In this document: piece after piece, positions 5,993-45,410 of the stretch
How positions within the stretch are numbered: the stretch's first letter is position 1
Layout of the letters: every line of letters starts with the position of its first letter
Origin: Thelephora terrestris
Taxonomy: Eukaryota > Basidiomycota > Agaricomycetes > Thelephorales > Thelephoraceae
DNA: 64,000 bases
NCBI GenBank assembly: GCA_015956445.1
Contig: WIUZ02000003.1
Span: 310,001-374,000 of the forward strand
Direction: 5' to 3'
The notes under the pieces: generated by a model
Database searches by the model: none
What the model was told of the DNA's origin: nothing
The model's input: the letters and a program-made list of their open reading frames with translations, nothing else
Made by a program: the position numbers and the translations under genes

Positions 5993-7294
5993 TCAGGCAC
6001 GAAACACGCCATAATGCTGGTTCTCCCCCTCGGAGCTTCTCTGGCCACCGGCCTGCGAGGTCACCCGAGCCAATGCTTCAAACACGCAAAGTGACTAAGT
6101 CTCCAAAAATCGTAGGAAAATAATGGATACATACCGCGGTCGAGCACCTTGAGATCACCCAGCTTGGTGTCTTGTGGGCTCACGATGTTCCTTAGTTCGT
6201 CAAAGCACTCGCGAAGCTCTAACCGCTTCTTCGCTAGTCGTTGAGGCTTGGTTTGCCAACCTTGGGTCGTCTCGCGCTCCGGAACATTCCCTCCTAAGTG
6301 TGTGATGACTAACAGACAAGCATCAGTAACGCTTCTAGACGTCGAAGAAGCTGACATACGTGTTTGAAGGGTCAAGAGTTCATCCTGCGTTGAGGGAATC
6401 CCCAATGCTTTGCGGATATGAGAAAGGCACGTCTTCTTTCCATCCTCATTTTGGGTACGGTCGTATCTACTCCTCGAGGTCGATGGGGTTGGCTCGCTCG
6501 ACTGCTGCCAAGGCCGAGCCGAGCCGGTCGAAGTTCCTGCCACTTGGGCTGAAGTGTTTGTCCACTCCTGGTGCTCACTAGTCCCAGCGTCTGGGAGGTT
6601 GTCGTCTGCTTCGTTGTTGCCACCGTCGCCACTGAAGTGACCCCTGTTGTCATACCATGGACCCACCGGAGGAAGCGGTATCGTCTCCGACCTAGGCGCC
6701 GACGGCGACTTCCAAGGATAAGAAACCAAGGGGTCACCGACGTTCAATACAAGCAGTCGAGGGTCCGATGGCATGGCTCCGTAGAACTCTGCAGGACCAG
6801 GTGGCGGTGGCATCTCCGGTGACAGCTGCAACACCCGCATTCGAGAGTAAGTGCTCCGTCATGAAGCAACAGTGGCGGTACGTACCATTTGAAAGTCGGT
6901 GACGGTTTGCGGAATGGGCATTGGAGTAGGGTCTAGCCTCATTCGATGGTCGCCATCGAAGACCGCAGGTGGTACTAGTCGGTGAATAAAGACCGTATAT
7001 TAGTGATAGACTGTGAAAAGTGTAGCATATAACATACCAAACGGATCTGAATCCGAATCATTTGAGAAGTCTCCATGCCACGACCAGTCCTCGTCGGTGG
7101 GAGCGACCCCCGGTATAGAATCGGAGGGATACATACGGCTCCAAGCCTCTCGAGCTGTAGGTGAACAACGTTTAGTAAACGGCCAAGCGGAACGAGGGAT
7201 AAACCACGAAGGGGTCCGCACCTTCCATCCCATACCTCTCGATGTCGTCATCAAGGTCAAACCATGTGAGTTCGGGTACCCTCGTTGAAGACAT
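5993..7294 (-). CDS. Double helix-loop-helix-like protein M1
   Basis: Six exons remain in frame: 7294-7222, about 7154-7037, 6974-6886, 6825-6360, 6308-6135 and 6075-5993 (stop TGA). The N-terminus MSSTRVPELTWFDLDDDIE is acidic, followed by a long Pro/Ser/Thr-rich linker. Module 1 has basic helix 1 GKKTCLSHIRKALGI and helix 2 LQTLITHLGGNVPE. Module 2 has KKRLELRECFDELRNIV and LKVLDRALARVTSQ. Both match the general bHLH pattern (basic/Leu helix, loop, helix with [VI]L..A....L), though the usual DNA-contact Glu is not clear. Each helix 2 is split by a phase-1 intron at the same codon. It is probably a nuclear dimerising regulator, by inference. Closest relative is M2 in the duplicated unit. The start is supported by a TATA box 57 bp upstream. 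Confidence 0.7.
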
Positions 7295-7350
7295 AGCACT
7301 AGCAGAGACGAGTATTTGGTTGGCGGAACCCCAAGCGATGGGATGCGGTC

Positions 7351-7379
7351 TATATACCAGACGGCACACCGGAACGTCC
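7351..7379 (-). promoter_or_regulatory. M1 promoter: TATA box plus ACGT-core motif
   Basis: Read on the minus strand, GGACGTTCC (7371-7379) precedes the TATATA box (7351-7356) by about 20 bp, and the ATG follows 57 bp later. The same arrangement is present at M2, M4 and M5. Confidence 0.55.
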
Positions 7380-8480
7380 GTCTCATCCAAGGCGGGGTGG
7401 TGTACTCATCCACACGCGAGAAACTACAATGAACAGTTGGACGGGCAGAATTTGCAGGGTTCCACAGAGAACTTACCGCGTTACTATTCCTGCGCAGCTC
7501 AACAGAAGACCGTGAGGAGGCGATGCAGAATTGGTGAAATGCATCGCGTAAGATTCGTTTTACTCTGGCGAAGGGAGCAGTTCAGAATGCATGAGGATAT
7601 ATTCCGTCTATCAGGACGATGGTATGTGGACGTTCGAATGGACGTTTTGGGCCTTTGCCATGCAGCCCATTCATATCGGTTGGTGATGCCATCAGGAGTT
7701 TAGCCATGCAGGTAGGATTAGGACAGCCGCCGCCGCCGCGATACTGCCTCAAGTACCGACGGTGATCAGCCTGAACTCATTGAAGGTTTCTGATTGGCTA
7801 GAGAGTGATGGCATCACCTTGCCTAGATTGGTGTCAATGGGATGGTGTATCGTTGTGCATGGTCCCTCTAACACTGGCTGCACCGGTCAGCCATGCCCTC
7901 TCACGTATAGCCCTACAAAAAAGCCGCAGCAGAGGGTTTGGACGGGTCGTTCGTCGTTGCCAAATTGCCAACGTAAGAAGTCAGCTGTACACGTAGCTTC
8001 ACTGAAATCACCTTCGTCCTCGGGCCAGAACGAACAAAGGGACGACGTATAGATCAGGGAAGACGTCGCGATAGATTTGGGTGGGTCTAGACTCTAGACG
8101 GGGAGTCGATATGAGACTGGAGGGTTTCAGCTGTTTCAGTCCAGCTTGAGCGAGGGCCATGCGGCGTGAGCTGGGCGTGTCGGTCGCCCTAAAAGATGTT
8201 CTCGGGTAGAGCCGGAATCCACCTTGATGGTGGCTTGCGTTCTAACTTCTCGGGCTTTGCCACAATCGTCAAGGACAGAAATAAATCAGGGGAGAATTCA
8301 CCACGCCACCACTTGCGCAAACGGATTGTGCAAATTCGGGCCAAATACCATCCCATTGCCTTCCAGCACTCGTCCCCCTCGGGTTCGCGTTCCCCGTACA
8401 GAAATTACACGACAGCTGATCCGGACGGCAGCGGATCATTAAGAGCGATTCCGAACTCCGAACCCGCAACTCGACCAACC

Positions 8481-8899
8481 GTCGAAAATGGCTGAGGTGG
8501 TTACGATCCAGAAACTCCTGAAACTTGACCACGAAAACGCCCGCGGTTCTAGGTGATTCTCCAAACCCTTTGTTGCCTGTGCTAGTTGCCAACCTGCCTT
8601 TATCTCTGCATAGTGGATGGGTAACGTCGAACCGAGCGTCTAATGCATTCGTTTTCCACGTTCACGATTGACTTGACACATCGTTGCCTCATACCTTCTG
8701 ACCACCTTGCTCAGAACCCCAGTTCGTCATCCGCATAAGCTCAAGTTCTGGACGCTCGAACCACCGTAAGAGAGCTTGTATCGGAGGGTGCAATATGCGC
8801 GTGATCGATATCTGGCCATGGTCAATATGTAAACGCGGACACACGACCGCCAACGATAAAACATGAGGCACACATGCCACAAAACAAAAAACGAAGGTG
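8481..8899. other. Spacer between the two duplication units
   Basis: No coding frame with protein-like features is seen. It joins the upstream flank of M1 to the downstream flank of M2. Confidence 0.4.
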
Positions 8900-9270
8900 A
8901 TAGATATGGGTACAACGTACTAGGTCCACAATTACAAAAACGATATGAAAACAGCCAGATAGGCACTGAACAATGAAAACAACAATTTGACACGGAAACC
9001 GAAAACGGGGAAACAATGAGTGAGTGAGTCGCGCCGATCCCAAGCGGCCAAAGCGCCGTCGTGTCGTCAAGAGCTAGTTAGAAAGAAAAGAAAAGAGAGT
9101 GCGAAAGATTTGGAATTCATTCCCTAGTCCGTGCGGATGCTCCCGGTCCGCCAAATACAAAAGGCGGGCTCTCCACACGAGAACGCCTCGCGCCCATACC
9201 CTGTTATTCCCGCCATCCGCCACATCACACCACAATACAACACCGAGCCACACAGGCGTACTCCGCCCTC

Positions 9271-10411
9271 TCATCGGACACGAAACACGCCGTATTGCTG
9301 GTACTCTCCCTCAGAGCCCCTCTGGCCAACAACCTGCGAAGTCACCAACTCCCATGCTAAAAATCCACAAGAGTCTTGAGCTTATGGTTTTCGCGTGAAA
9401 TGAATGGTTAATTTACCAAGGGTTAGGACTTTGAGGTCCCCCAGCCTCGCGTTCCGTGGGCTAACTATGTTCCTCAGCTCACGAAAGCACTCGCGAAGCT
9501 CCGCCCGCTTCTTCGCTTGCCGCCGAGGCTTCGTTAGCCAGCCATGGGAGGTCTCGTGCTCCGGAACAGTTCCGCCCAGGTGCTGAATGACTGGCGCAGG
9601 GAGGTGTCAAGGTCCACTTCCGAGACCAGAAAATCTGACGTACGTTTCTGGAGGGTCGGGAGCTCATCCTCCGTCGAAGAAATTCCCAGCGCTTCGCGGA
9701 TATGAGAGAGGCGCGACCTCTTTCCCTCCTCGTTTTCGGCGCGGTTGTACTTGCCCCTGGAGCTTGATGGGGTTGACCTGCTTGACTGCTGCCAAGGCCG
9801 TGATTATAGACGATTGTTTCTGGTCGGGGTGAAAAATGCTGCTCGCCTCAGAGTGGATATCATTCTCTATTATTTCGGGCTTGGCTGGAGCCAAGCTGGC
9901 CGATGCTCCAGACCCTTGGGCTGAAGTAGGCCTTGGTGTTATCCCCGGCGCTAGCTGCAATACCAGCGTTTGAGGATAAGCGCTCCGTCATTAAACGATC
10001 GTCGCGGTGCGTACCATTTGAAATTCGTGACCAGTTTGCGAAATGAACTGTGGAGCGGGTGCTAGTCCTCTATCGAAGGTCCCCGGTGGTACTGATTTGT
10101 GAATATGATATGGACCATATGTTACTAATAGCTTGTGTAAGGCGTAGTGAACACCCACCAAACAGATCGGGATCAGAAAGATTTGAAGAGTCTCCAGGCC
10201 AAAGCCACTTTTGGTTGGTGGGAATGGCCCCCGCTGTGGAAGTGGAGGGAAACAGGCGGTTCCAATCCTCCTGCGCTGTAGGTGAGATGTATTTAAAACT
10301 CCCATGCGGGACAAGGGTATGCTACTAGGGGGACGAACCTTCAATCAAGAACCTCTCGAGATCATCATCTAGATCAACCCATGTGAGTTCGGGTGCCCCC
10401 GTTGTAGACAT
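9271..10411 (-). CDS. Double helix-loop-helix-like protein M2
   Basis: Paralogue of M1 with the same exon plan. It starts MSTTGAPELTWVDLDDDLER at 10411 and ends ...GEYQQYGVFRVR at 9271 (TGA). Module 1 has NEEGKRSRLSHIREALGI and LIQHLGGTVPEHE. Module 2 has KKRAELRECFRELRNIVS and LKVLTLAWELVTSQ. The intron-split codon is conserved in both modules. The linker exon is shorter than in M1. The frame that carries module 1 has a stop just upstream, near 9805, so either an extra intron is used or the linker is damaged. The flanking exons look under constraint. A TATA box lies 60 bp upstream. Confidence 0.6.
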
Positions 10412-10470
10412 ACTGGTAAAGGCCAGTATACGCGATTGATGGAACCCCAAGCGATGGTTCATGGTCTGTC

Positions 10471-10499
10471 TATATACCAGACGGCATACCGGAACGTCC
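10471..10499 (-). promoter_or_regulatory. M2 promoter: TATA box plus ACGT-core motif
   Basis: TATATA at 10471-10476 and GGACGTTCC at 10491-10499 (minus-strand reading) have the same 20-bp spacing as in M1. Upstream both share a GGCGGGG-rich stretch. Confidence 0.55.
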
Positions 10500-11480
10500 G
10501 TTTTAGCTGGGGGCGGGGTTTAATGTATGGCAACAATTCTTCTGCGGATGCGGGAACCTACATCAACCGGTTCGACGGTTGGACAGATAGAAAGCTGAAC
10601 ATTTCCACAGCGAACTCACCACGTCCCTGTTCCTCCACAGTTCAACAAAACAAACCCGCAAGGATGCTTTGCAAAAATAGGTGAAATGCATCACCTAATA
10701 TCACCACTGTCGCGGTGAAGTCAGCGGGGTAGTAAAACTAATCCAGGACACATGAGGATATATGCCGTCTATCGAAACGCAGACGTTCAGAAGGACGTTT
10801 TGGGGGTTCCGCCCTGAAGTTCGGTCGTATCAGTCAATGATGCAGGAAAGATTGGCGGGACAGCCACCGCCGCAATACTGTCCCGTTCCGGATAAGTCGG
10901 TGATCATCCTGAACTTATTGGAGGTTTCCGATTGGCTGGAGAGTGAGATTGTGTGACATCCACCGTGACCAGGTGGGGGAAATGGAACAGCGGCGTCACT
11001 CAAGGTCCCTCCAGCGCCGGATGAGCTGGCAAGCCATGCCCTCTCGCGTACAACCCGACGAGGAAGCTGCAGGAGGGGCGTTGGACGGGTCGTTCGTCGT
11101 TGTCAAGTTGCCAGCGGAAGAATCCATCTGTCCGTGTAGCTGCCCCGTCGCTGCGAAATCGCCTACATTCTCGGTTTAGAACGAACAGAAGGACGGTGAT
11201 AGATCAGGGAAGGTTTCATGATAAATTTGGGTGGGTCTAGACCGCAAGTCGATATGAAACTGGAGGGTTTCAGTCCAGTCCAAGCAGGGTCCGTGAGCTG
11301 GACGTGTCGGTCACCAAAAAAGATGTTTCGGGTAGAACCGACATCCGCCTTCATGGCACCTTGTCAGCGCCCTTGAGCTTTGCCACGATCATCTTCCCCG
11401 ACCTCGGCAAATTCCATCAGTCAGCGCAACCCCGCGGCCCCCAACTTCAGCTTCAACTTCGGCTCCCGAGCCGGTACCAG

Positions 11481-12394
11481 TTCCCCAGGCATCGATGGTC
11501 AACTTTCCACGCGAGCAGCCCTTTGGGAACAGCTCGTGAACTCATGTTTTTCACGACACGTCTCAACATGCCTCCAGACAATGGTCAGGTTAGTAACTCT
11601 TCCCTCAATGTTCACATTGAATTTTTGCACAACAGAAGCTCCGACCGGTGGAAAAGAAAGCTTAATGGAAACGCAAATCCGTCCACCATCTATTCACATC
11701 ACCACGCCACTGGCCAACTCAAAGCCCGCGACGCACAATCGCGCGGAACGGAAAGCGACACCCGCCCTACCTACTTGCTGCCTTGTGGAATACTTTTTTA
11801 GGGCAGCTTCTAGCACACCTGCATCCTAAACTGTTCAATTTTCAGTGTTCAACGGCTGGGCGTGGGCAATGGAAGAATACCTGCTCGAATTCGTCGCGAA
11901 GTGAAACAACCCACACACTAACCAATGAGAGCAGCTCCCGTCTATCTCACGACAATGCTCTCAGAAGTCTCCGTTCGCTCCGGGATCTGCAGGTGTGCCT
12001 CACTGGGCCGGGCGTCTCCCATATCTCCCTCGCCTATCCTTGTTATCTCCGACTTTCTTGTTACCTACCCCGGTATCTTCTCAGTCACAATTCTATCACA
12101 ACACTGATATAACGTCAAAGCGTGCGGTAGATTCTACGGTATACACACTCTACCCACAGACAATAGACTAGGAATTACGAGGGCACGACCGTAAAAACTT
12201 TGTGAAACCGCCGAGTAGGAGAACAGTAATACAAGTCGTTGTCACAAAATGGACCAGTGAGGGGACCGCATAAACTAGAAAACGAAACAAGTACGAAAAT
12301 AGGAAGGTGTATGGCGGACGAGGCGCTTGTAGGACAAACCCGTCAGCGCAGAGCACGATCTCTGGCCAGGGTAAAATAAAACAATTCCCTCCGA
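11481..12394. other. No gene recognised
   Basis: Plus-strand frames between 11304 and 12112 overlap one another and lack protein-like composition. Nothing familiar is present on the minus strand. Confidence 0.4.
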
Positions 12395-13172
12395 CTAGAT
12401 ATCGTCCTCTGCCCTGTAGGGTTCGGTAACGGTCGAGGGGGTGGACGGTTCAGCTCCCTGACCTAAACCGTCCGCCCACACTCCATGGCCCGAAGTCTGA
12501 CCGCTGGGGTTCGCCGGAGGGAACGATGTCGAGTTTAGTGGCTTTCTCAGACAAAGCGTCAGATTGCTCACACTTGGATGGAAACCAATCGACACACTCA
12601 CTGGATCCATCCATATGCCGTCCACAAACACCATTGACGCGGGCAACGTACTCGTCGTGGGCTGCAGTGGCGGTATCTCTGCTTGCGGGGGATTATACGA
12701 CCCGCCAGCGATTCCTGGCAGCACTTTTGTCAGCTGAGAGTACACGTGGATCAGGCACAACAAGGGGCAGATACGCACCCCCATCATCGTGTTCCTCGAA
12801 GTATAAACTACCATCCTGGTACAAACTGTCGTTGGGGTCTATCCCAGGATTGGATTCTGCAGTCATTATGTCCGACGCCTCCCCCACTAGTGATGAGGGT
12901 GGGAGTCAGCCAGCAGTCATGCAGAAAAACGTGTCGTGGAACATACTCGAGCCCTCAAACTGTGCCTCAGACGACGGGCCACTCCATCCCGTGTTCGCGG
13001 CACTGGAGAAACCACGAGAGTCAAGCACGTAGTTACCTACGCCGAATTGCGCTAAAACTAAATCGAGCTTTCGATTTAGTAGATCAACTTTGCATTCAAG
13101 GCTGTGGATGTGTTGTTGCACAAGGCAAACGCCGGTCTCCAGTCGTCCCAGAATAAACTCTTCTGATTGCAT
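12395..13172 (-). CDS. Coiled-coil protein M5, related to the M4 N-terminus, without HLH part
   Basis: Start at 13172: MQSEEFILGRLETGV, then the coiled-coil segment SLECKVDLLNRKLDLVLAQ, which aligns with LDRKIDIMNRNFDLLL of M4. Likely exons are 13172 to about 12965, about 12894-12795, and about 12715-12395. The last may contain a further intron, since GTGAGTGT follows WMDP, but it stays open either way. The C-terminus is Pro/Ser/Thr rich and ends EPYRAEDDI. No HLH module is found before or after the stop. The promoter matches M4 closely. It may be a partner or decoy for M4-type proteins, by inference only. Confidence 0.5.
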
Positions 13173-13250
13173 ATTTGCCACCGTATTGAGCTGAAAGTAG
13201 AGGAACTGGAGATGGAGAGAGATGGAGAGACAGGCTGAAGCGAGTTGATT

Positions 13251-13331
13251 TATATAAGGAGGGGGCACGGCTGGACGTCCATCCTACGCGAGGGACGTTG
13301 CAGGAGCAATAGGTGAGCCATGGCCAAAAAA
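13251..13331 (-). promoter_or_regulatory. M5 promoter: TATA, ACGT motif and a CCATGGCC block
   Basis: TATATAA lies at 13251-13257, GGACGTCC at 13273-13280, and on the plus strand AGCCATGGCCAAAAAA at 13316-13331. The same three elements with nearly the same spacing precede M4 (24267, 24288 and 24328). Confidence 0.6.
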
Positions 13332-13539
13332 CTGTTACTCCTAGCGTAAAAATAACACTGCCTGCGCCGTGCCATACGTGAACGTGATGATGACTCTCAA
13401 GGTTCACCGAGATCAAGAACTGGATGAGGTGATAAGCGGGGCAGCGATGTTATATCGGTGATGCGGGAGAACGCGACCGATACGATGGATCTATCGAGCA
13501 CAGGCCGTGGCACACCGGAAGACAATCATGAGTACACCA
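13332..13539. other. Upstream spacer
   Basis: This is intergenic DNA beyond the M5 promoter. Nothing further is recognised. Confidence 0.3.
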
Positions 13540-13628
13540 AAAACCCTACGAGCCCATTGTGAGCGACTGTGATGGGTTCTTCGTCATTGCGAACGGCTCA
13601 CCGGTCATTGAGGTCAAAGAGCCTCACC
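13540..13628 (+). pseudogene. Relic of a coding exon, copy 2
   Basis: Partner of 4779-4870, reading PYEPIVSDCDGFFVIANG in the shared frame. The copies are about 8.8 kb apart and in the same orientation. No adjoining exon is seen. Confidence 0.45.
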
Positions 13629-14569
13629 TGTGGCTCGGAAGGCCACCGTGGTCCAACGCAATTAGCTGTGCAGCGTGTGCACCGTAGAGTACGAGGTCGA
13701 GAAACGGGGTATCTCTAGGGACTCTTTGGCGGGGAGACAAAGCTAGACAAAGGTGGGGATGGAGGAACGAAAGAATCCAGCTCATGGCGGGGACAATCAA
13801 GTGGTCGGATCTCCAGAAAGGGCGCCGGGTGTAACCGAGTGCGGTCAGTCCTTTGTGAGCGAGCGCCTTATTAGACAGCAAATTGCAATGGGAATCCGCC
13901 AAGAACTCCGTATCAGTGATGGTGGCGGAAAGTGTCTGCGACGTTAATATACGGGTGCCGCTTTGACTCGCAAGCGTTTTGACCCAGGTTCAGGCCGCCG
14001 GGGGGGTTACGACGAGAGTGGTGGAGTACTAGATAGATGACATACGTAAGGTATGGACCGAACATCTGGTAGAGTGATCCGATAGTGAAATACTTTCGTT
14101 GCCCTGATGAGGACGTTCCTTTATCAAGGGGCATGGGTGACCTGGATATTGTTCAGCAGCAGAGCGTGCGAGACACTGACTGACTATAAGCATGTCGTTC
14201 TCCAGATGTGGTGCTGGCGCAGCTTTCCGGTGAGACCAATGCGGGGGGGTGTTTATGCAGACCTTGAGTACTCGTTGATGCCATGGCACACAGCCGACTC
14301 GTACGCGATACCCATGAGATGCGCCAGACTGAAAAGTTCCGAAGCACAAGGAATTGCCCGAATGGATCGGGCGCCCTCGAGACGTGCGGACGGGTTGCCC
14401 AAACGGGCTAATGAGTTCAAAGAAAATTACACAATAAGACACCCGGCGGCAAAAAAAAAGCACTAAATCTGGATTTGTGCCATGATGTCGAGAACGGTCA
14501 GGCCTGAGAGCGCCAGAGTTATGGGGGAGCCGTGGGGTAACGCGGTCACCCCCGCACCCCAGCACGCGC
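13629..14569. other. No gene recognised
   Basis: Only short overlapping frames on both strands are seen. No splice-consistent model was found. Confidence 0.35.
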
Positions 14570-22687: not shown

Positions 22688-24189
22688 CTACAGAGAAAAC
22701 ACGATCCTGCCGGATCCTGACCCTTCAGGAGGCTCTGCACCGCCACGTCGCACCATCGCTAGGACTGCCGAACAATCAGTTTGCCGAATATCTCAGAAAG
22801 ATTTCCAAGGACATGTACCATTCTCGAGCACGCTCAGCTCAATGATCCTCTCAGTCCAAGGCCCCACGTGTTTCCTCAACTCCTCGTAGCACGATTTGCA
22901 TGCGTTCTCCTTCCATCGCCTCCCCCTGGTGGAAAGACCGCTTTGCGGAATATTCCATCCCAATCCCTCGATGACTAAAAGCAGGCAAGTGTCAGATGTT
23001 GCACTATCTCCTGCACTAAAAGAGCGGTTTACTGTTTTGAAGGTCTGTAAGTCTATCCCCAGTACATTCGATTTTCTTCAAGTCGCAGATCTTTTTCACG
23101 CAGCGGGCCTTCTGGTCCTCCCTTTCCGCGCGCTTGCCATTGTCATGCTTCGGGTTCAGAGTGACTGGACTACATGACTGTTGCCGATCCGTGAGCAAAG
23201 ACCACAATCTGGCGGGGTAAAGAGAAATGCGTACCTCCTGGGTATCACCCTGTTCGCTGTCTGGCACGGCAACGGCCAAGCCCACGGACGATTCAGGCTC
23301 TCGGGCTGGATTTACCGCCGCGGGTTGGATGAACTGGTCGTCGGCGTGATCATAACCTGTGTAGTTACTGTGATATCCGTCGAAACCGCCGTCAACGTGC
23401 GCTCCGTAATCGGCTATGTCATCACCAGGGGTTACTGGAGGCAATGGAATAGGAGCGCTAAAGGTCTGTGGGAGCACCTTCCACAGACGGAAAAAGTCAA
23501 AACCACCCGCCCGAGCTGCAGTGGTTCGAGATACTCACCTGGTCTATCCAGTTGTAAGGAACATCCACCGTAGATGCTGGAGCCATCATATGTGGTAACT
23601 ACAACACCCACATGGAGTCAAGGATCCATACGCGGGAAACTCTGGACATCAAGTACCGTAGAAATATCGTTTGACATTCCTGGCAAGGGCACTAGGTCGG
23701 ATTGCAATTGGTGGGTACCTCCGGTGATGCCTGGCGGCAGCTATTGATGAGTTGGGAGCACACTTGGTGGTATGACAGGGTGCGGACACAGACCCAACGA
23801 GTTCGATTCCTCGAAATACGAGGGATCTCCCCGCCACAATGTGTCCATATGGCCGGGAACTATCCCTGGCGTATGAGGAGGGGTCCCCATAGGATGAAGC
23901 GTCCCTCCCGCTAGAGACGAAAGTATGAATCGCCCAGCCGTCATACGGTCACGAGCTTCGACTAAGAGCACGTACCTGGCCTTCCACACATCTCCCCAAA
24001 GCTTGGATCATTCCAACCTACGTTGCTAGCATCAAAGGGATTCTGGCCACCCATCCCATTGTCCGCATTGGACTGAATTAAGAGAAGGTCGAAATTGCGG
24101 TTCATGATGTCAATCTTGCGATCCAACTCGTCGAGGCGTCGTAGGATGTTGCTTAAGGTGTTCTGTAAGTCAACGGAGGTGACTGACAT
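22688..24189 (-). CDS. Double helix-loop-helix-like protein M4
   Basis: Start at 24189: MSVTSVDLQNTLSNILRRLD, followed by a coiled coil DELDRKIDIMNRNFDLLL. Middle exons include LPQTFSAPIPLPPVTPGDD, an acidic Gly/Tyr-rich stretch. Module 1 has ARCVKKICDLKKIECTGD and LTDLQNIIEGLGWNIPQ. Module 2 has RRWKENACKSCYEELRKHV and IIELSVLENAMVRRGG. It ends GSGSGRIVFSL with TAG at 22688. Phase-1 introns split the helix-2 codon in both modules, as in the other members. One middle exon junction (about 23740-23950) is not resolved. M4 joins the M5-type coiled coil to the HLH pair, so N-termini appear to be exchanged within the family. Confidence 0.6.
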
Positions 24190-25249: not shown

Positions 25250-26134
25250 TTACTCAGCAGAGCCGCTGGGTCGACCTTCGTGGATAATTTCCAAGGTGTC
25301 TTCCCCTTTGACCATCTTTATGGCTACCAACAGATCATACTTAGGGGGGAGGGTTAAGAATCAAAAGAAACCGTAAATTTCACGCACCCCGCTCCAGGCA
25401 GCGAACATGCTTCAATCTACCCTGTTCGCCCAAGACCCTGTGAAGCTCTTTAAACGCCAACCTTATTCTCTTTGCGCTTTCTCTGGTGTTGGACTGCGGT
25501 ACAGTGCCCCCTAGCCGCGCTATGGCTGGGGAGGAATTGAAGTGAATAAACGACTGACTCAAGAGCCGCCACCAAATACTCGCACCTTCGTTCAGCACCT
25601 TGAGGCTCGAATCTTTGTGCGAAAGGCCCATAGCTTCACGGAGCTCACTAATGTAGCGAGACTTTTGAGCGTTCAACTTCCGCCGCTTTTCTGGAGATTT
25701 TGGTCCATTCCCTGAGGACTGTCGGTTAAAAGGAAAGTCAACGTAAGTAAAATAGGCGGAGATGAGAGAGACTAGACGTCACATACTCCTTGCGGGGTCT
25801 GATGGTCCTCAACAACGTCGGGACAGACGCTAGTATCCCTGTCTGAGGAATGATCTTCACTAGCCGCAGTACCGAATAGTTGGATATCCTGAAACTAGAC
25901 TCTACGTCAACAACGCAAATCCAGGGATCGACTGGGCTTACGATATGCCAGTCTGGACAGAACGCTGGCGACGGTTGAGGTTGAGGGGGGGCGAGTAGGT
26001 GTTCAGGGATTTCTGAAGTCTGGAGGGCAGTCGGGAAGGCTCGTTCTGTGTTCAGTGCATTCATAAGCGTGTTGGGCTCCCAGTGGAACTGGGGGGGGGT
26101 CCCACTCCGTCGATTCGGTGGGATAGGGGTCCAT
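25250..26134 (-). CDS. Double helix-loop-helix-like protein M6
   Basis: Start at 26134: MDPYPTESTEWDPPP, resembling SEWDPS of M3. Later exons read: acidic SSDRDTSVCPDVVEDHQTP; module 1 EKRRKLNAQKSRYISELREA with LKVLNEAIARLGGTVPQ; module 2 SAKRIRLAFKELHRVLGEQG with LKHVRCLERAIKMVKGE; end IIHEGRPSGSAE, TAA at 25250. Module introns split the Ala codon as in M3. A run of C on the coding strand near 26090-26098 separates the N-terminal frame from the one that continues (FHWEPNTLMNALNTERAF), so the reading frame changes there. This is either a real slip in a homopolymer or an assembly error. TATA-like GGTATATAAC lies near 26250. Confidence 0.6.
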
Positions 26135-29341: not shown

Positions 29342-29372
29342 AGATGCGTAAGGGAGAGAATTGATGCCATGG

Positions 29373-29725: not shown

Positions 29726-32457
<2,732 letters not shown>

Positions 32458-32631: not shown

Positions 32632-34470
32632 TCACGGAAATGGGGAACGAACGATGACCCGTTTGGCCCGCTTGAGCCGATCCAAAAAGGATTTCTTGCC
32701 CTTAGCACGGACCTTGGGCAAGCATCGGTCAGTTTCGGTAGGAGATATCGGGCCCTCGGAGCTTTCGCCTACATCTGATCCGTTCTTTGATGAGCGGCTG
32801 GTTTGGGTTGTAGAACGCTTCTTCCCGGGTGTGCCCTTCTCTTTGGCTTCGGATATATCATCCTGACCGATGCGATCGTACGAATGAGCGGTGGTATCGG
32901 ATGATGGAGAATGAACGTCTGTTCCAAAACCGCGAGAAGCTGATATAACGCGTCAAATCAGACTATCAGTGATTTGTACAAGTACATGTGACTTGACTTA
33001 CAAGATCGATTTGTGAAAAACGAGCTTCGAGAGTCGACAGAATTCTGCCTACCGGGGTCATCCAGCTGAGCTTCGGCACCCAACGCAGAGTCAGTGGTCT
33101 TCCTCTCCCCAGTAATGTCGCAAAACGTCCCTAGGATTTTTGAGATGTCTGGCCTCTTTGTCCTATCCTCCCTCCACGTCTCCTGCAAGAGGTTCCAAAT
33201 GTCCTCCGTCATCCCAATCGCCTCCGCGTTCTCCGGCTTGATGGGGCGCACGCCTGAGATGATGGGAAGGATGATCTCTAACTCTTTCTTCGGAAAGAAC
33301 GGCCATTTCCCCGTCAAGACCTGATACACCGTCATGCCCAATGCGTAGATATCCGCCTCCTTAGATGGAACCCCTTTATCAAGGCCGAATTTTGGCGGAG
33401 CGAGGAGCTCTGGAGCCATGAAAGATACTGTGCCGTCTTCTGCACTCGACGCCTTCGCCGAAATCGTTGACACACGCGTGAAACCAAGGTCTGCGAGGAT
33501 GGCCCTTGGCGGAGTGGTATCAGCGATGAGGACGTTTGGCTGGGGGTGGGATGAGTTCATGATTAGACGTTCGCACGAGTAAGAGAGCCTACCCCTTTGA
33601 TATCTCCGTGCGCGATGTTGCAACTGTGGAGATATTTGACTCCTTTGATCACACACAAAAGCTAAATAGCGGCAGAGCGTTGAGTGATGTGACGGTTGGC
33701 GCTGGGAGAATATTTAAGCTTACCAGACGTAACCGATTCGCATCGGGGAATCGCAACAAATACTCGGTGATGTTTCCCTTATCCATCCAAGGTGTGACGA
33801 TAGCTGGTACATCGTTGTGGTAGAACACGCCTTGGAACGTGAGGATATATGGACACGACACGTGTTTCCAGAGGATCGCCTCCTTGCAAAAACGCTGTAT
33901 CCAGTAATGTCAGTGTGAAACGCGGGCCATTTCAACCCACTCACCTTCTTGAGTACCATCGGAGTCTCCTGGCCTGAACTCCTCAAGACCTTTACCGCGA
34001 CAGTGTCGTCGTTCCGTTTTCCAATATAGACGTTGGCACATGTTCCGGATGTATGGGGCTCGCTTTTAGGTACCACCGTACTTGGGTCAATCCAGTATGA
34101 ACGAGGGAGGTATTGGCATCGACGAGAAAGTCTCGAGATGGTGGAAAATACCCTTGAGCGTGTTTCAATATCTTTGGCCCTAAACGGATTGGAAGAGATA
34201 ATCTACAGCGTGATAAGTGTTTGACGTACAGGAGTCCGATCCAAATTCGCTCACCTTGTCAAGACACTCAATCACCAGGACCGCAACATCGCCGGTCAGC
34301 GATAGGATCTCATTTCGTTGAGAATCGTCGTCAAGCGCTCCCGTCAACTTTTTGACGAGATCTTCCAAATCGAGATCCCCGGCCTCAAGCAGCTCTACGC
34401 TAGGGAGGGAGAGTACAATGTCTGGGAATTCCGTTTGAAGACCACGGATAGAGGAGGGTAAAAGGTCATG
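32632..34470 (-). CDS. TKL-like kinase K1 with basic C-terminal tail
   Basis: Landmarks in order: helical N-terminal region DIVLSLPSVELLEAGDLDL ... VAVLVIECLDK; DIETRSRVFSTISRLSRR; kinase N-lobe GTCANVYIGKRNDDTVAVKV (ATP Lys kept, Gly loop weak); RFCKEAILWKHVSCPYILTF; HGD loop CNIAHGDIKGPNVLI; DLG in ADLGFTRV; MAPELLAPPKFGLDKGVPSK; ADIYALGMTVYQVLTGKWPF. A last exon adds a Ser/Lys-rich tail ending KKSFLDRLKRAKRV and stop at 32632. Coding sequence further 5' (to about 34950) is clearly related to K2 but has indels that shift frame, so the true start is unresolved. HGD in place of HRD is common in this fungal family; activity is possible. Tail-to-tail with the helicase gene. Confidence 0.65.
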
Positions 34471-34599
34471 CTTCAGATATTTGAATGTGATTTGAGCTCA
34501 TGAAGGGGGGCGTACTGGAGATAGCAGGTGAAGGCATTATGTAGGGGGCGGGCAGTGAGGTGCGGTGAATGGTGGGACACAACTAGGATACAGCGCTCG

Positions 34600-35600
34600 G
34601 CGACGTTCAATCGTTGTTGGAGGTAGTGTTAATAGGATCGAGAACCACGAGGCGTCCTATCTGTGCAACACGCTTGGGCCGCGCGGCGAACTGGCGCTTC
34701 TGCCGGGGAGCAGTACAGTTGTGAGTAGGGATCCAAAGTAGATTCGTCCTTCTGGCAGGTAGAACTTTTAATTGGTTGTACCTCCGCATGACAGACCGAG
34801 GACGCTACAAAGTTGCGGCTCAGCCCCAGACCTTGCCACTCCCGAGCTGCTAGCACCAAGTCGGAAATGCGATTTTCGGTGATTTCCGTGAGGCGGGAAC
34901 GGTTGGTATATAGGTTATAAGTTTCATGGTGCCGCTTGTATGTAAGCATCACTGAACCTCCCTTGGTCGTCTGGGAATGCAGTCGGACTTTGCAGATGGT
35001 GGAATCTGCTCTAGAGGTTCGGATTAACCCGACCGAATCACCCTCTGCCGATCACCGTGCCGTCACGGAACGCGGGGACATAAATTAGCACAGAACAGTC
35101 GACTTCGCACGACACGATTCCGCGAGCTCCCCAACAGTCGGAAACGGCTGGACCGGAGGCCATTCTCACTGCTCCTCACGGGGTCTGCTCAACCGGACAA
35201 TGCTCTCGGTCACGCAGAAGTGTGAATTCCTTGTCACCGTGACGGGCCTTACGCCCTTCTTTTTCTTCACGGCTATCCTTCAAATTATGATCTACGCCGG
35301 TCCACGTTCGGACCCCTCGGATACTCATTCACCTCTTGCGCTCCCTCCCAGATTCACAGAACAACAAGACCCACCCTCTCTCTCTCTCGGTAGACAACAA
35401 TCTAGCTCTTCGACTGTATTTTTACGGAACTTGTCGGATGTAATCCTCGTTCCATCCCTCTCCCTTGGGTTCTTCATCCTGACGACTGTTGTGGAGACTG
35501 CGCGACCGGGCTGCGCTCCCCAGCGAAAGAAATCCCAGGGAAGGGTTTTTTCCCCGTCGTGGATGACCAACGCGCCTCCCTAACGCTTGATGAGGCTATA
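34600..35600. repeat. Duplicated 5' part of the kinase array, K1 copy
   Basis: Matches 39470-40470 in the same order: CTCGATCCTATYAAC, TGCAAAGTYCGRCTGCATTC, and upstream the TCGACTGTATTTTTACGGAA / TCGACTGCATGTTTGCGGAA block. This shows that promoter and N-terminal exons were duplicated together with the kinase. Confidence 0.6.
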
Positions 35601-35894
35601 CCGATATTGAACAAATCGGCGGTGATCACACGTATACGCAGTAGTTTCCCAAGTCGACGAACTCCCCTCGAGTGCCTGGAAAAGCCAATCGCATGAAACT
35701 AGTAGAGAACTCCTCCAAAGGCACAGGTAGTTCTGAAGGAGGGAAGCAGCCGAAATAAATTATCATAAAGCAAGCATTGGGTACACAGGTAAGACCCCAT
35801 CAGCCCCAGAAAGTGCTGCCGGGTCGAAGCAAGGTGGAGGAGGAGGTTGTGAAATGGATCCAATAGAATATTACTCTAACCCGGTGTCTCATCA

Positions 35895-38800
35895 CTAGTC
35901 CACATCGTACGCTGCCGGCGCGGGTGAGACGCGTTGTTGAGAGGCGATAAGCGACAGATTTGCAGACTCTTCTTGTGTGGCTGCGGGCAACCTATTCGCA
36001 GGATCTTCTTGTGCAGTGGTAGGTAAGGTATTTGCGCGATCTTCTTGCGTGATAACAGGTGGGATATTCGTATAATTGTCTTGTAGGGCGGTGTACGGAA
36101 TATTCTCAGGATCTTGCCCGTCGACGAGGACGGCGGGTACCGTTTTGCGGCCGAAGAGAGCAAGGAGTTCTACCGGGAATCAATTGGGTCAGCCGTAAGG
36201 AACGAGTAATTAGGATGATGTGTTTACTTCTCTTTACGATTTGCTGCAGTCTTCTGATCCATTTCCATTTCCTTGGGGGAGTTTCGAGGTGTGGGTTTGT
36301 GTGGGATGAGCTATTACCAGAGGGACCACGGGTGAACACAACAGGACCTTTGAGAAGGCGTTACGTCATTCCCACGAAACATATGAGGCGACGGGAAGGA
36401 CATACATGATCGTCGATGCGCACAGTCAGTGTCCCTGGGAGTAAAGAGCCAATCATCTGGCGGTCCTTGGGTATAGACAGGAATCCCTTCAAAATTTTGG
36501 AACTCAACAGCCATGGAATGGGTACAATGAGGGGGACATACACGCTGGCGCAGGCATACATTCAGGACCCCATTTGATAATTTCCTCCGTTTCCGTATAC
36601 ACGATCATAGACTTCAGAAAGTAGAACCGGAGGGGCCAAAGCATTTTCAGAACTCCGCCTTGGCGATAAACGAGGGAAAATTTGCAAAGCACATCAACCA
36701 CCTCACTCACTCCGTCCGTCCCGTGAAAGATCCCCTCCAATTGGCGTTCCATGATTCCAGACTGGAAGTTGAAGCATGCAATTGCCCCGAGTACATCCCG
36801 AGCCTTGGTCCCTAGCTCTTCGATCCTCGGAAAGCGAAACACCGGCTCAATGGCGACTTTCAGCATTTCGTAATAGTTCGATCTCAACGCGCTTTTTCGG
36901 TCATCCCAGGCCTTCAAGAGCATCTCTTCGTCCCAACCATTTTCGCGTGCGTGCTTCGCAAGCAGTCCAATAGTTAACTGGTGGAAGTCGAGTTCCGCAA
37001 TAAGGGAGTCCAGCACAGGCGTTCTGCTGAAGTTGCAGAGACTGTAGAAGATCTCTCGTGCGCCATCCTCGGGGGGAGTTGGTACTTCTACCCGGTGGAA
37101 ACCATGAATTCTGGGTACACCCTGCTGGTAGTCAGCAGGCAAACATGCTCATAGCTACCAAATTCTTCTATCCTTGCATATATCTCCTCAGCATCGGGTA
37201 CGAGTGGGTCGAGGGCAAGGTCCACGCCGTCGAGCAACAACATGAGCGGAGGAGAGGACTGGAGGTACGAGTGAAGTTGTGTTGGATTGGTGTGGATTGT
37301 GTCAGATAGGCGCTCCATGAAACCCTCCAGCGAGTTCGAGAGGTCATCACAGCGCATGAAGTAACGCTTTTCACCGAACTTGGCTCTGGTTCGGCCGTGG
37401 TCTAGGACATTGCGGGCCACGAATGACTTTACGATGCCCATCGACCCGAAAAGAGCGACCGATACGACCTGATCGGTGAGATCCAATATCTCGCTCATGA
37501 TTTGAGGAGACCGTTTGGTGGACGCGTCCAGTTGTGTTTCAAATGACAAAATTTTCGAAAACGAGCTCCGAGAGCCGACAGAATTCTGCCTACTGGCATC
37601 ATCCAGTTGGGGTTCGGCAGTACCCATCAGAGAGTCAGTGGTCTTCCTCTCCGGGCCCTCGGATGTTTTGCCTACATCTGGTCTGTTCTTTGCTGAGTGG
37701 CTAGTTTGGGTTTCAAACGGCTTCTTCCCGGGTGTGGCCTTCTCCTTGGCCTCGGATATCTCGTCCTGACCGAGGTGCACGTACGAATGAGCGATGGAGT
37801 CGGATGAAGAATTCAGGTCTGTAACAGAACCACTAGAAGCTTATACAACGCGTCAAATCAGACTATCAGTGATTTATAAAAGTACATGTGACTTGACTTA
37901 CAAGATCGATATAGGCGGAGCGGGCTTCGGGGGTCGACAAAATTATGCCTACCGGGGGCATCCAGTTGAATGGTCTTCCTCTCCCCAGTAATGTCGCAAA
38001 ACGTCCATAGAATTTTTGAGATGTCTGGCCTCGTTGTCCTATCCTCCCTCCAAGTCTCCTGCAAGAGGCTCCAAATATCCTCCGTCATCCCGATCCCCTC
38101 AGCGTTCTCCGGCTTGGAAGGACGCGCACCTGAGACGATGGGAAAGAAGATATTCAGTCCTTTCGTCGGAAAAAACGGCGATTTTCCCGTCAAAACCTGA
38201 TACACCGTCATGCCCAAAGCGTAGATGTCTGCCTCTTTGGATGGAACCCCGTTTTCAAGCCCGAATTTTTGCGGAACGAGGAGCTCTGGGGCCATAAAAG
38301 ATACTGTGTCTTCTTCTTCCATCGGTGTCTTCGTCAAAATCGCCGCCACACGCGTGAAACCAAGGTCCGCGAGCATGGCCCTTGGCGGAGTGGAATCAGA
38401 GATGAGGACGTTTGACTGGAAATGGGATGGGTTCGTACTAGCTAGACTTTCACACAAGTAAGAGGGCTTACCCCTTTGATATCTCCGTGCGCGATGTTGC
38501 AACTGTGGAGATATCTGACTCCTTTGAACACACACGAAAGCTAAATAGTGGCAGAGCGTTGAGTGATGTAACAGTTTGCACTGGGAGAAGACCTAAGCTT
38601 ACCAGACGTAACCGATTCGCATCGGGACATCTCACCAGAAACTCGGTGACGTTTCCATCGGCCATCCAAGGCGTGACGGTCGCTAGTAAGCCGTTGTGGT
38701 AGAACACGCCTTGGAACGTGAGGATATACGGACACGACACGTGTTTCCAGATGAGCGCCTCCTTGCAAAAACGCTGTATTCAGTCAAGTCAGTCAGCGTC

Positions 38801-39544
38801 CGCGTGACACGCGGGCCATTTTCACCTTCTCGAGAACCGTCGGGCTCTCCTGTCCTGAGCTCCTCAAAACCTTCACCGCGACAGTATCATCGTTCCGTTT
38901 TCCCATGTAGACGTTGGCGCATGTTCCGGATGAATGAGGATCGCTTGCAAGTACCACCGTAGTTGGGTCAATCCAGTAGGAAAGAGGGAGGTATTGACAT
39001 CCACGAGAAAGTCTCGAGATGGTGGAAAATACCCTTGAGCGTGATTTGATATCTTTGGCCCTAAACGTACTGGAAGAGATAATCTATAGCGTGATGAGTA
39101 CTTGACATACAGGAGTCCGATCTAAATTCGCTCACCTTGTCAAGACACTCAATCACCAGGACCGCAACATCGCCGGTCAGCGATAGGATCTCATTTCGTT
39201 GAGAATCGTCGTCAAGCGCTCCCATCAAGTTTTCAACGAGATTTTCCAAATCGAAATCCCCGGCCTCAAGCAGCTCTACGCTAGGGAAGGAGAGTACAAG
39301 ATCTGGAAAGTCCGTTTTGAAATTGCGGGGAGAGGGGGGTAAGGGTTTACGCCTGAAGGTAAATCGAACTCAAGAAGAGGACGTACTGGACATAACAGGC
39401 GAGAGCATTGGATAGGGATTGGACGGAATGACCGGGCAGTTGAGGTGCAATGAGTGGTGGGATCCAAAGGGAATAGAGCTCTGCGGCGTTCAATCGTTGT
39501 TGGAGGTGGCAGTTGATAGGATCGAGGACCACGAGGCATCCCAT
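35895..39544 (-). CDS. Kinase-NB-ARC-like STAND fusion K2
   Basis: The kinase half parallels K1 (GTCANVYMGKRNDDTVAVKV, CNIAHGDIKG, ADLGFTRV, MAPELLVPQKFGLENG) and then, through an intron at the codon where K1 also splices (RSCK), runs into an NTPase half: P-loop-like VALFGSMGIVKSFVARNVL (Gly before Lys is Val), Walker B LMLLLDGVD, sensor LLTTSR, GLPL-like HQLTIGLLA, and the winged-helix-like part ELGTKARDVLGAIACF. This matches NLR-type proteins of Agaricomycetes in which a kinase replaces the usual effector. Further exons add the cationic WKWIRRLQQIVKRKLLALFG and an acidic repeat tail; stop at 35895. Exon joins at about 36340-36600 are uncertain. ATG 39544 (MGCLVVLDPINCHLQQRL) is the first start without an in-frame stop; related sequence continues 5' to about 40200. 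Confidence 0.6.
35930..36115 (-). repeat. Degenerate 36-39-bp tandem repeat in the K2 tail
   Basis: In the K2 frame this gives four to five units of 12-13 residues such as TQEDRANTLPTTA, QEDPANRLPAAT and QEESANLSLIAS. The core is [TA]QE[DE]xAN. It forms an acidic, probably disordered tail directly after the cationic segment. Confidence 0.6.
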
Positions 39545-40489
39545 CTGTGCAACATGCGTGGGCCACGCGGCAAACTAGCGCTTCTTCCAGAAAGCAATAC
39601 AGTCGTTGGTAGGGAGATCGAACGTGGATTTGTCCTTCCGCCGGTAAAACCGACAATTGTTTGAACCTTCGCATGAGAGACCGAGGGCGCAACAAAGTTG
39701 CAGCTCAGCCTCAGGCCGTGCCGCCCCCGAACTGCCAGCCCAGTCGGGAATGAGATGCTCGGTAATTTCTGTGTGGCGAGAAGGGTTGGTGGGTCGTAGG
39801 TTTCATGGTACCGCTTGTACGCATCACCGAACCTTCGTGTACCTCCCTTGGTCGTCTGGGAATGCAGCCGAACTTTGCAGATGGTGAGATTTGCTTGAGA
39901 GGTTCGGATGTACCCGAGCGGATTATTTTCTGTCCCCTTTCGATCATCGTGCCGTCGCGGAGCTTCCGTTCCGCCTACCGACCAGTCGACTTCGTAAAAC
40001 TCGTCGAACGCGATCTCGCCCGTAACACGAGGTTCCGCGAGTTCCTGGATGCATTCTCGACCCCAAGCCGGCGAGGAGCTGTGCGGAGGCCGTCCGTTCC
40101 AGTTGTCTCTGAGTCTACTCACCCGGAAAACGCTCTCGAAGCATGAATCCCCTATGTGATTTTTTGTGTTTGTGGAAGGTTTTTCATGTTTTGTGCTCTT
40201 ATTGCCCTTCACGGTTAGGCTTGTGGCTTACTGTCTGCCCGGGTTCGTACCACTCAGACACACATTTGCCTCTTGCAGACTTTCCCCTCAATCCCACAAA
40301 ACAACAGCATCCGCTCCTCTCTCCTCTTTGTGGCCAACAACCTAATTCCTCGACTGCATGTTTGCGGAACTTGTCTGGTAACACCCTGGAATCCCCCACA
40401 AGCTCCCTCATTCAATCCCCCGTTTCTTGCGCTCCTTGTTGTTCTTCCAGGAAACAATAGTTTGAGGGTAGAATCGATGCCGTTGGGCA

Positions 40490-42620
40490 ATGATGTGACT
40501 GGAGTTAACGCGGATGGGATAGGGTGAGCGCTCGATGAAACCCTCCAACAAGGTCATCACAACGCACGTAACGACGTATTCCACCGAACTTGGCCCTGGT
40601 TTGGCTTTGGTCCGACGGCATGGGCAACGAAAAACCCCCCGATGCCGATCTGCCCGAAAAGCCACTGACGCCACTGGATCGATAGGGCCCGGTCCAATCT
40701 CGTTCGTAACTTGTGAACTCCATTTGGTGGACGCTTCCCATCGGTCTATCGGTGTTTCGGAAAAGCGCATGCGACTTGACTCACATGGCCGAGTTGTGAA
40801 GGCGGGTTTCGGGGATCAATGAGTTCCTTTTTCCAGGATCACCTAATTGAGTTAAGCCATTCCAGTAGATTCAGTGGTCTTCTGCTCCACAGGTTCCAGC
40901 AAGCATCGCAGAACATCCGTAGGTGTTTATGATGTTTAGTCTCTGTCCTATCTTCCCTACAAGGTCACCCGAAGAGATACCACACAACCTCCGTCATCCC
41001 AACCATCCTCATCCTCGCATTCTCCGGCCTGGGAGAACGCTCGCCCGCGATGGCGGGACCCAGAGCGTAGATAAGGTGGCCGAAAGTGAACGACCGCAAC
41101 CTCATCTGCCCCTTTAGACGGGGTCCAATTATTAAGAGCAAATCTTGCTCGGGGAACTCTGGAGCCATGAAGGGTACTGTGCCTTCTTCTTCACTCGATA
41201 TCTGCACCGAGACCGTCGCCATACGCGTGAAACTAGGATTGGTGAGGATTGGCTTTGGCGGAGTAAAATCAGAGGTGGGGACGTTGGGCTGGAAGTAAGA
41301 TGAGTTCGTAACTGGATCTCTCGCGTGAATCAGAGGGCTTACCGCTTTGCCATCTCCGCGCGCGATGGCGCAACGGTGGAGATATTTGACTCCTCTTAAC
41401 GTGCAGAAAAGCTAAATAGTGGCAGAACACTAAGTGAAGCGATAGCCAGCGCTGGGGGACACTTAAGCTTACAGACGCAACTGATTCGCATTGGGATATT
41501 TCTTCCGATACTTGGTAATGTTTCCTGGACACAACAAGTGCTTCCAGACAATCGCCGCCTTGGACAAACGCTGTACCCCATCAAGCCAGTGGTTGGGTGC
41601 CACGCGCGTCAGTTCCCTTGTCGAGTCTCATCCAGTTCTCGTGGTCCACGGAAGAGGTTTGTCGTTCTGTCCTCCGCGGTGAACGTCGGCGTATGTTCCG
41701 GATATGAGGTCTGTTGTGGAGTGCAACCGTACTTGGATTGAGACAGTAGGACCGGGCGAGGTGCCGGCACCCACGAGAAAGTCTCGAGGTGGAGGGGAAT
41801 TTCCTTGAGCGTGTATGTGTATCTTCAGCCCTGAAAAAGCAGAGGAGACGATCTACAGTGCGATGAGCACTGCGAAATACAGGAACTCAGACCAGATTTG
41901 CTCACCTTGTCAAGACACTTGATCGGCAAAACCTCTCCGGCCGACAACAGGATCTCGTTCCCCTGAGAGTAGTCGACGAGCTCGTCCAAGCTGAAACGTC
42001 CAGTCTCAAGCAGCTCTACACTAGGGAGGGAGAGTAGAATGTCTGGAATTCCCGTCAAGCCATGGAGGGGGAGAGTGAACGTTTGCTCTTCAGATAGCTG
42101 ATGGTTTGCTCTAGAACGTTTATTCTTCCCATTATCTCCAGTAAGCTGACCTTCACGGCCCCGATACCGGGTGATCGATATGTGGCAAAGGGTGTGATAC
42201 AATTGACAACCGGCGCTCGAAGATGTTCAATGGTTGTCTGGGGTAGTGGATAATAGGGTTAAGGGTCATGAGGTGCCAATGCCTTCGCGACACGCTTGGA
42301 CCGCGCGGCGAATTATCAACGCTTCCGCCGGGAAGAATAAAGTTGGTCCCTGAGAAACCCTCCTTGCAGCTGTGGGGATAGAAATCATATGAGCCTTCGC
42401 ATCACAGACCGAGCAGCTACAAAGTTGCGGCATAGCCTCGGACTGTGCCACTTCCGCGAATTGCCAGCTAGGCTAGCACGAAGTCAGCAGCAGGGCCGTT
42501 CGGTAATCTCCGTGTGGCGGGTGTGGTTGGCGGGTTGTAGGTTTCATGGTACCGCATCCACGCTATCGCCGAACCCTCTGCGGGCATCCCATCCCTCGGT
42601 ATCCCAGAATTGCAGCACTT
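40490..42620 (-). pseudogene. Broken kinase-NTPase copy K3
   Basis: The same gene order as K2 is recognisable: LEDL-like N-terminal exon (42160-41905), the kinase N-lobe region, the GDGKA-like catalytic exon near 41345, the MAPEFPEQDLL-like segment near 41165, and the NTPase relic RAKFGGIRRYVRCDDL near 40570. Frames change repeatedly (for example at the second exon near 41840), the glycine and lysine regions of the kinase are lost, and the activation segment is short. It is clearly dead. Confidence 0.7.
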
Positions 42621-43645: not shown

Positions 43646-43652
43646 TATAAAA
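43646..43652 (+). promoter_or_regulatory. TATA box upstream of M7
   Basis: TATAAAA on the plus strand lies about 226 bp before the M7 ATG, leaving room for a leader exon or intron. This spacing differs from the other members. Confidence 0.35.
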
Positions 43653-43877
43653 TGGTACCCACGCGCTTCTCCATTCACCACCACCCCCATCCCTTCTCTC
43701 CACACTCGTTGTTCGTAGATATCATCCCTTCTCTCTCCGGCCCACAGGTTGATGGCCAGTTCCGACTTTCAATTCCCTTCATTTCCAAACCGCCCTTCAC
43801 GCCAAAGTCCGTGTGCGCCTCCCTTCCCACGTTTATCCACTGTACAATGTTGACTGTTTTCGACAGACCACGACAAC

Positions 43878-45410
43878 ATGAATTTCAACGCCACGCACAT
43901 CGGAGATGGTAGGGGTGTGCAAGGTGAGCCTTCCTCAGCAATCATGCATCCATCGGGCGTCAACTCACAGACGCGGTTGAACGCCACTATTCCCTCTAAG
44001 GCTACGGTACGGCTTCCTGCTATACGTGTCAATCCATTCCTCACGATCAGATAACACAGGACCCAACGAGTGGGCTATTCTGCAGCACAATGGAGGCTGG
44101 GCCCCCAACCAGCATCCGCCCAGAGGTCAATCTACACACCACGGTAGATCAACGTCAGATAATCCGCACGCGACCCCTCTACATATGTCGCAACATCCCG
44201 ATGGTAAGTGGGATTCGCCGTGCACAACGTTGCCCACAGCTCACAGCGTGGGACATGCTAGCGTTCTGTCGTAGATCGTCTGTCCCGACCCTCCACTACA
44301 CTCCCCAATTGCCGTCGACCCCAGGTTATAATACGGGGCTTCAGATGTTGCAAGGGTACCCTCAGGTAGTGGACAATAGTTACCAGCAACATCCGCCGCA
44401 GCCAATCAACCATGGCCCACTCGCGCCTCGCTCTCTTACCCCATTAACGATCCCTGTGACCCCCAGTGGTCCTCCCGATTTCCTCTCCATTTCAGACTCA
44501 TGGTACCCTCCCACGCACCCACATCAACAACTAGGTTCTGGTTTTCACTCTGTGGCCCGTCCCCATCAACCACGCGGCGCGCAACAGCCCTTGCAACCAT
44601 GGGACACTAGAATGAGTGCAGGATCGCTCGGCGACCTTTCCCCGACTGCGTCGGGCAGTCAAATCGTATTCGAGAGTTCGGACTCCGCGACATCCCCGGG
44701 TGCAGATTCGGACCCCTACCGTAGTTTCCCCAACACCCCCGGCTATAACAATGGAACTATGAATGGCGAGTTTGGGGTCGGCCAGGTAAGCAGAAAATTT
44801 GAATGTCTCAGGGTTTTTGGGCGTTCACTCACACGGCCTCGGCTCGCTTTTTTTCATCTTTTTAGGAGGACCAGCGGAAGGTGAAGCAAATGTACAAGAA
44901 ACGGGAAGAGCGAGAACAACTTTCTGCCCAATTTGAGAGGTTGAAGAATGTTTTGGGGTTACCTAAGGCCACCCAGGCTGGCGTTTTGGAAAGAGGCAAG
45001 TAACCACTTTCGTACCTTTGACTGTCCGCCGCCTGGCCAGTGAGGGAATGGCAGCTGACACTTCTACGACCTTTTCTATAGCTATTGACCTCCTCGGCGG
45101 GAAAGTTCCTGTTCGCAAGAACGAGCCGACGCAGAGCCTACAAGGGAGAGAATCTCGGTCCAGCCGTGCTAAGCAAGTTTCCGCCTCCAGGAATGACACA
45201 TCTCGATTGTTCGATGAGATAGCGAGGTGCTTGGGGTACGGTAGCGGCAGCCCCACAAACCAGCAGCCACCGAGACGCGAGATACTTCTGAAACAAGGTA
45301 AGGCATTTGTGTTCTTTCACTTGCTGTCACCTCTTGGCTGACTCCCGAGATTTTGACCCTCGGAAACAGCCGCGGAAAAATTGGAACGACGAATGAAGTC
45401 GGGGATGTAA
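43878..45410 (+). CDS. Double helix-loop-helix-like protein M7
   Basis: The only plus-strand member. Start at 43878 (MNFNATHIGDGRGVQ), then a long Pro/Gln/His/Ser-rich region (GPNEWAILQHNGGW, YQQHPPQPINHGPLAPR). Module 1: KKREEREQLSAQFERLKNVL, loop, then AGVLERAIDLLGGKVP. Module 2: SRNDTSRLFDEIARCLGY, then EILLKQAAEKLERRMKSG. Module introns split the Ala codon in phase 1. The first uses a GC donor (AG/GCAAGT), a known minor splice class. It is the only member with a His/Gln-rich activation-domain-like region. The stop codon is formed at the edge of an LTR-like sequence that starts at 45406, so the C-terminus may have been shortened by that insertion. Confidence 0.7.

Follow-up and report, generated by a model that had tools for sequence, protein, structure and literature searches.

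The specificity of basic helix-loop-helix (bHLH) proteins normally depends on which of several separate chains come together as partners, and E-boxes are read by Glu9 together with Arg12 and Arg13 (or lysine) of the basic region. Id/extramacrochaetae and the plant atypical HLH proteins carry a single HLH without the canonical DNA-reading region. Here we analyzed a family of fungal proteins with two HLH modules in one chain, encoded by the genes M1, M2, M3, M4, M6 and M7 in a window of 64,000 nucleotides from Thelephora terrestris (contig WIUZ02000003.1, here C23, positions 310001-374000 of the 40.6-Mb genome). Two bHLH domains per chain are the hallmark of the Caenorhabditis elegans REF-1 family, consisting of HLH-25 and five others, and two-hybrid data and binding arrays suggest that these form homodimers on E-box-like sites (PMC4683635). 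The fungal family resembles REF-1 in its two modules per chain and in forming a small set of putative regulators. This likeness concerns the arrangement; REF-1 proteins are animal and HES-like, whereas the fungal modules lack Glu9. We assume that the two arrangements are convergent.

The first-pass annotation of this DNA knew of no fungal family with two tandem modules. Chains with two bHLH domains as such are known from REF-1, but literature searches returned, among the entries listed, no report of a double-bHLH protein in fungi. A text in which fungal bHLHs fall into 12 groups contains no occurrence of 'two bHLH' (PMC3502508). A rubber-tree set termed 'two bHLH domain' was rejected as a precedent because it carries the designation MYC_N in that paper (PMC12608283). 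We class the T. terrestris family as a variant of the HLH superfamily and do not assign it to the canonical bHLHs or to REF-1. In a double HLH that is fused by nature, covalent linkage would determine the partner, and such a protein could reveal how pairing and DNA reading evolve once they are decoupled.

HLH character and origin of the double module

Each of the six spliced proteins contains two C-terminal HLH modules. This bears out the two-module members listed in the first-pass annotation, and the ends of M1 (5993) and M7 (45410) coincide exactly with the limits given there. Two of the proposed sequence patterns held in part. The helix-2 pattern [VI]L..A[IL]..L is present in its strict form in module 1 of M3, M6 and M7, but not in the other nine of the 12 modules; a relaxed form, picked after the sequences had been seen, fits all 12. 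The segment [RQ]LGG.VP is exact in two of the six proteins and LGG.VP occurs in five, but M4 has LGWNIP. As a linker it qualifies only partly, since its first residues still belong to the end of the second helix in module 1; in the AlphaFold2 (AF2) model of M6 this helix ends at residue 199, just before the segment.

The relation to bHLH domains was assessed by profile-profile comparison. Ten of the 14 places elsewhere in the genome that exceed the cut-off of Pfam PF00010 (L007-L016) served as ordinary bHLHs; L017-L020 were left out, as they matched over 20 profile positions only. None of 300 column-shuffled profiles was as good as the real one for module 2 against ordinary bHLH or for module 1 against module 2, and two of 300 were for module 1 against ordinary bHLH. 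Both modules are thus more similar to bHLH than shuffled controls, as their proposed HLH-like nature implied; the accompanying HHalign probabilities were 61.9% for module 2 and 4.7% for module 1. The PF00010 gathering cut-off of 20.7 bits was not reached by any member (best 18.5 bits, for M1', a copy of M1 outside the window), and sequence searches of the PDB with the family were negative.

AF2 models of M6 and M7, two of the nine members identified, predict paired helices in each module. In M6 they span residues 160-181/189-199 and 212-227/235-246, all confident, and in M7 184-211/218-228 and 247-274/290-307, the latter pair with low confidence. The modules are separated by 12 residues in M6 and 18 in M7, measured between the predicted helices. 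The top two structural alignments of the M7 module-1 model, though weak, were bHLH domains (Myc-Max and TCF4). The HLH-like fold of the modules is well supported, as is the probable origin described next.

A phase-1 intron interrupts helix 2 at an identical position in all 18 modules of the nine genes, and the same position carries a phase-1 intron in two of the eight readable ordinary bHLH genes of the genome (L009 and L014). This common position is unusually clean evidence for how the double domain arose. From it we infer the fusion history; a single bHLH gene was likely duplicated in tandem and its copies fused to give the double module.

That both modules belong to one transcript, as the first-pass annotation presumed, is suggested by uninterrupted relatives set against intron-bearing genomic ones; relatives from other samples showed 51-59% identity. 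The Logan contigs P0002 and P0004 (1,755 and 1,074 bases) read through both modules uninterrupted. The genomic relative P0011 shows 72% identity to P0002 across 121 columns; where the module-2 intron is located it carries 23 additional columns, and the similarity between the two begins at the module-1 site. In P0008 the M1 intron, 51 bases long, is still present as 17 inserted residues. Because they lack introns, P0002 and P0004 are probably cDNA-derived transcripts, judging from their sequences.

DNA-reading region, selection and possible functions

The helices preceding the loops had been described as basic, but they do not represent a canonical bHLH basic region, because Glu9 is absent from all 22 modules analyzed (nine genes plus P0002 and P0004). 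In contrast, it is kept in 10 of 10 ordinary bHLHs. Glu9 was counted back ungapped from Leu23 of helix 1, a register that is uncertain for some modules; if slips of up to 4 residues are allowed, 7 of the 22 could fit E..[RK][RK]. The complete E9/R12/R13 region is found in none of the 22 modules and is intact in nine of the ten ordinary bHLHs. Ordinary fungal bHLHs (PF00010) share the HLH core and the [IVL]L..A of helix 2 with the family, and L009 and L014 also the phase-1 intron, whereas only one module was seen per gene. Nevertheless, the first module of M6 and M7 and the second module of M1 and M2 keep stretches rich in lysine and arginine (net charge +4 to +6) ahead of their helix 1. The N-termini vary, as the first-pass annotation noted. 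They are net negative (-3 to -21) in the six deposited T. terrestris members, whose modules are net positive; that of the relative P0002 is neutral.

The loss of Glu9, the retained K/R stretches and this charge pattern lead us to favour a regulator with an acidic N-terminus and a linked HLH pair, whose DNA reading is altered or lost. We give about an even chance to the complete explanation, in which these are regulators of the HLH superfamily, derived from bHLH by duplication and fusion, with an acidic N-terminus, two C-terminal HLH modules and an action independent of E-boxes, and in which the family is restricted to its lineage in Thelephora. An ordinary bHLH gene would have been duplicated in tandem and its copies fused, giving an acidic, poorly conserved N-terminal region followed by two HLH modules with a short linker, and the family would then have expanded within one 215-kb region. 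The two HLHs of a chain would probably pair with each other, forming a single-chain pseudo-dimer, or else each would find its partner HLH in another member. The basic stretches may contact DNA in a non-E-box manner, and the acidic N-terminus may serve as a regulatory region. We infer a nuclear role, intramolecular pairing and DNA contact. The family diverges fast and belongs to an ectomycorrhizal symbiont, which also makes it a candidate for lineage-specific regulation.

The main rival, clearly less probable, is that the proteins are HLH-only dimerization partners which have lost the E-box region and capture one or two ordinary bHLH factors to block or redirect them, like Id. The consistent absence of Glu9 fits such a role, as the family shares with Id/extramacrochaetae and the atypical HLH proteins an HLH without canonical DNA-reading region. 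Two HLHs per chain could hold two partners, and the 14 PF00010 places represent possible partners. However, the family differs in its two HLHs, in the K/R stretches kept by several modules and in long acidic N-termini, unlike those of the small Id-type proteins. Somewhat less likely again is a bolder form of the regulator explanation, in which the diverged halves of each chain form an obligate intramolecular heterodimer, a pseudo-dimer whose DNA code is altered, and the locus-bound set constitutes a fast-evolving regulatory or recognition system.

The distribution of the family bears on the remaining alternatives. Whole-genome protein queries with M6, M7, M1, M4, M8 and M3, run exon by exon with only the best candidates scored, gave 6, 2, 13, 5, 12 and 6 matches, respectively. 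All 44 lie on C23 at 207,080-421,872, a single 215-kb stretch; at the sensitivity used the family is confined to one locus. Distant subfamilies miss each other, as the M6 query retrieves M3 but not M1. The six members proposed for the window are all real, but the family extends beyond it to at least nine genes, as three further double-module genes (M8 in L044, M2' in L045 and M1' in L046) are located on the same contig. In this region 201 kb, comprising 6,303 open frames, were searched with a middle-exon profile. It recovered nine genes with E-values no higher than 4e-16, and the next match (E 0.078) was the module-1 exon of M7 itself. Seven of the nine had been used to build this profile, which leaves M1' and M2' as the independent finds. 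The direct reading covered the cluster region except for 40 kb (C23:221-261k).

A self/non-self or mating-type recognition locus, whose diverged regulator paralogs pair only in permitted combinations, is improbable. The restriction to one locus, the strong divergence of the members (27% identity between M6 and M1) and an inverted segmental duplicate would suit such a locus. In basidiomycetes the homeodomain (HD) mating-type locus consists of homeodomain genes with mitochondrial intermediate peptidase as their flanking marker. A genome search sets the cluster on C23 apart from this type, as Homeobox_KN passes its cut-off nowhere but on C15 and C56, C23 having just one weak match at 559 kb (E 0.19), and the only matches to the marker, Peptidase_M3, are on C45. 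Moreover, omega (dN/dS, the ratio of non-synonymous to synonymous substitution rates) is below 1 in both modules and N-terminal parts. In the segmental copies M1/M1' and M2/M2' it amounts to 0.36 and 0.34 for the modules and to 0.63 and 0.50 for the N-terminal parts. The deficit of amino-acid changes in the modules is significant (pooled Fisher p 5e-4, from rounded counts), and the same test gave p 0.048 and 0.020 for the N-terminal parts. The modules of recent duplicates are under purifying selection, with omega about 0.35.

This selection also argues against a functionless repeat family that is decaying or associated with transposons, which we consider slightly more improbable still. Such decay could be read from M5 and M5', which have an M4-like N-terminus and no modules, from the putative mobile elements beside the distal copies and from a GC splice donor in M1'. 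However, open frames and usable splice sites extend over the modules in all nine double-module genes (the N-terminal parts of M4, M6 and M8 being incompletely modelled), and relatives persist in other samples. A helical module unrelated to bHLH and alike by chance is equally improbable, for although single-sequence scores, HHalign probabilities, Pfam and PDB searches were weak or negative, the shuffled controls, the intron shared with two ordinary bHLH genes and the structural alignments of M7 speak against it.

Gene models

For five of the six members in the window, the models agree over the modules with proteins deposited for T. terrestris; for M4 no deposited protein was returned by the protein search. 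The UniRef entries of M1, M2 and M2' are named 'BHLH domain-containing', so their HLH character was already known to automatic annotation, and M3, M6 and M7 are annotated 'hypothetical' or 'uncharacterized'.

M1 (BJ322DRAFT_527124, P0005; 5993..7294, minus strand) agrees with its deposited protein and has a sub-threshold Pfam HLH match on module 2. Its exons are 7294-7222, 7154-7038, 6974-6886, 6825-6360, 6308-6135 and 6075-5993, the last three encoding the modules, and the phase-1 introns in helix 2 are located at 6309..6359 (module 1) and 6076..6134 (module 2). M2 (BJ322DRAFT_527174, P0006; 9271..10411, minus) likewise has a sub-threshold Pfam HLH match; its helix-2 introns, both phase 1 as in all following genes, are 9643-9591 and 9416-9357. 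A GC-donor intron (9846-9789) lies upstream of its modules. M3 (BJ322DRAFT_527348, P0003; 16647..17542, minus) has helix-2 introns at 16985-16922 and 16783-16721. The deposited starts of both M2 and M3 are further upstream.

The model of M4 (22688..24189, minus) covers the first two N-terminal exons and the modules, with module exons 23177-23033, 22974-22819 and 22764-22688 and helix-2 introns 23032-22975 and 22818-22765. M6 (BJ322DRAFT_1041548, partial, P0009; 25250..26417, minus) was modelled over its modules (25718-25250; helix-2 introns 25585-25526 and 25387-25324), and its start was taken from P0009; the AF2 model has four helices. In an upstream exon (26005-26134) the reading frame is broken by a stop that follows a run of C, which may be an assembly error or a genuine change, and P0009 is flagged partial. 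M7 (BJ322DRAFT_1041595, P0001; 44185..45410, plus) comprises exons 44185-44203 and 44262-44785, both from the deposited protein, 44866-44995, 45082-45297 and 45370-45410, with helix-2 introns 44996-45081 and 45298-45369. In the models the first of these has a GC donor, as does the M1' intron L046:5509-5559, both at the module-1 position.

M5 (12395..13172, minus, ends tentative) resembles M4 in its N-terminal region, which is coiled-coil-like (tblastn with the M4 N-terminus, E 3.3e-7). It contains no HLH modules and no match to the middle-exon (exon-B) profile, and is tentatively regarded as a truncated or diverged relative.

Duplicated segments and neighbouring genes

The interval 4733-14507 recurs in inverted orientation as a segmental duplicate at C23:392-423k, and long pieces of the two show 82-92% identity. 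Between and beside the distal copies are two frames that resemble, judged by eye, Ty3/gypsy (L046:441-3578) and a transposase (L045:5966-7466). Protein-kinase genes are repeated in tandem at 32749-42578, 47354-48788 and 58384-59856, and L047, L048 and L051 contain DNA copies; four of five kinase-like frames tested matched Pfam Pkinase, and 40968-41411 did not. A frame at 37091-37840 resembles a P-loop/STAND ATPase by eye and has no Pfam match. Two adjoining genes at 49629-53630 have F-box-like N-termini just below the Pfam cut-off. Frames resembling, by eye, a trehalose-6-phosphate synthase (54812-57234, minus) and a DEAH-box helicase (30216-32266, plus) are probably conserved genes that neighbour the variable cluster.
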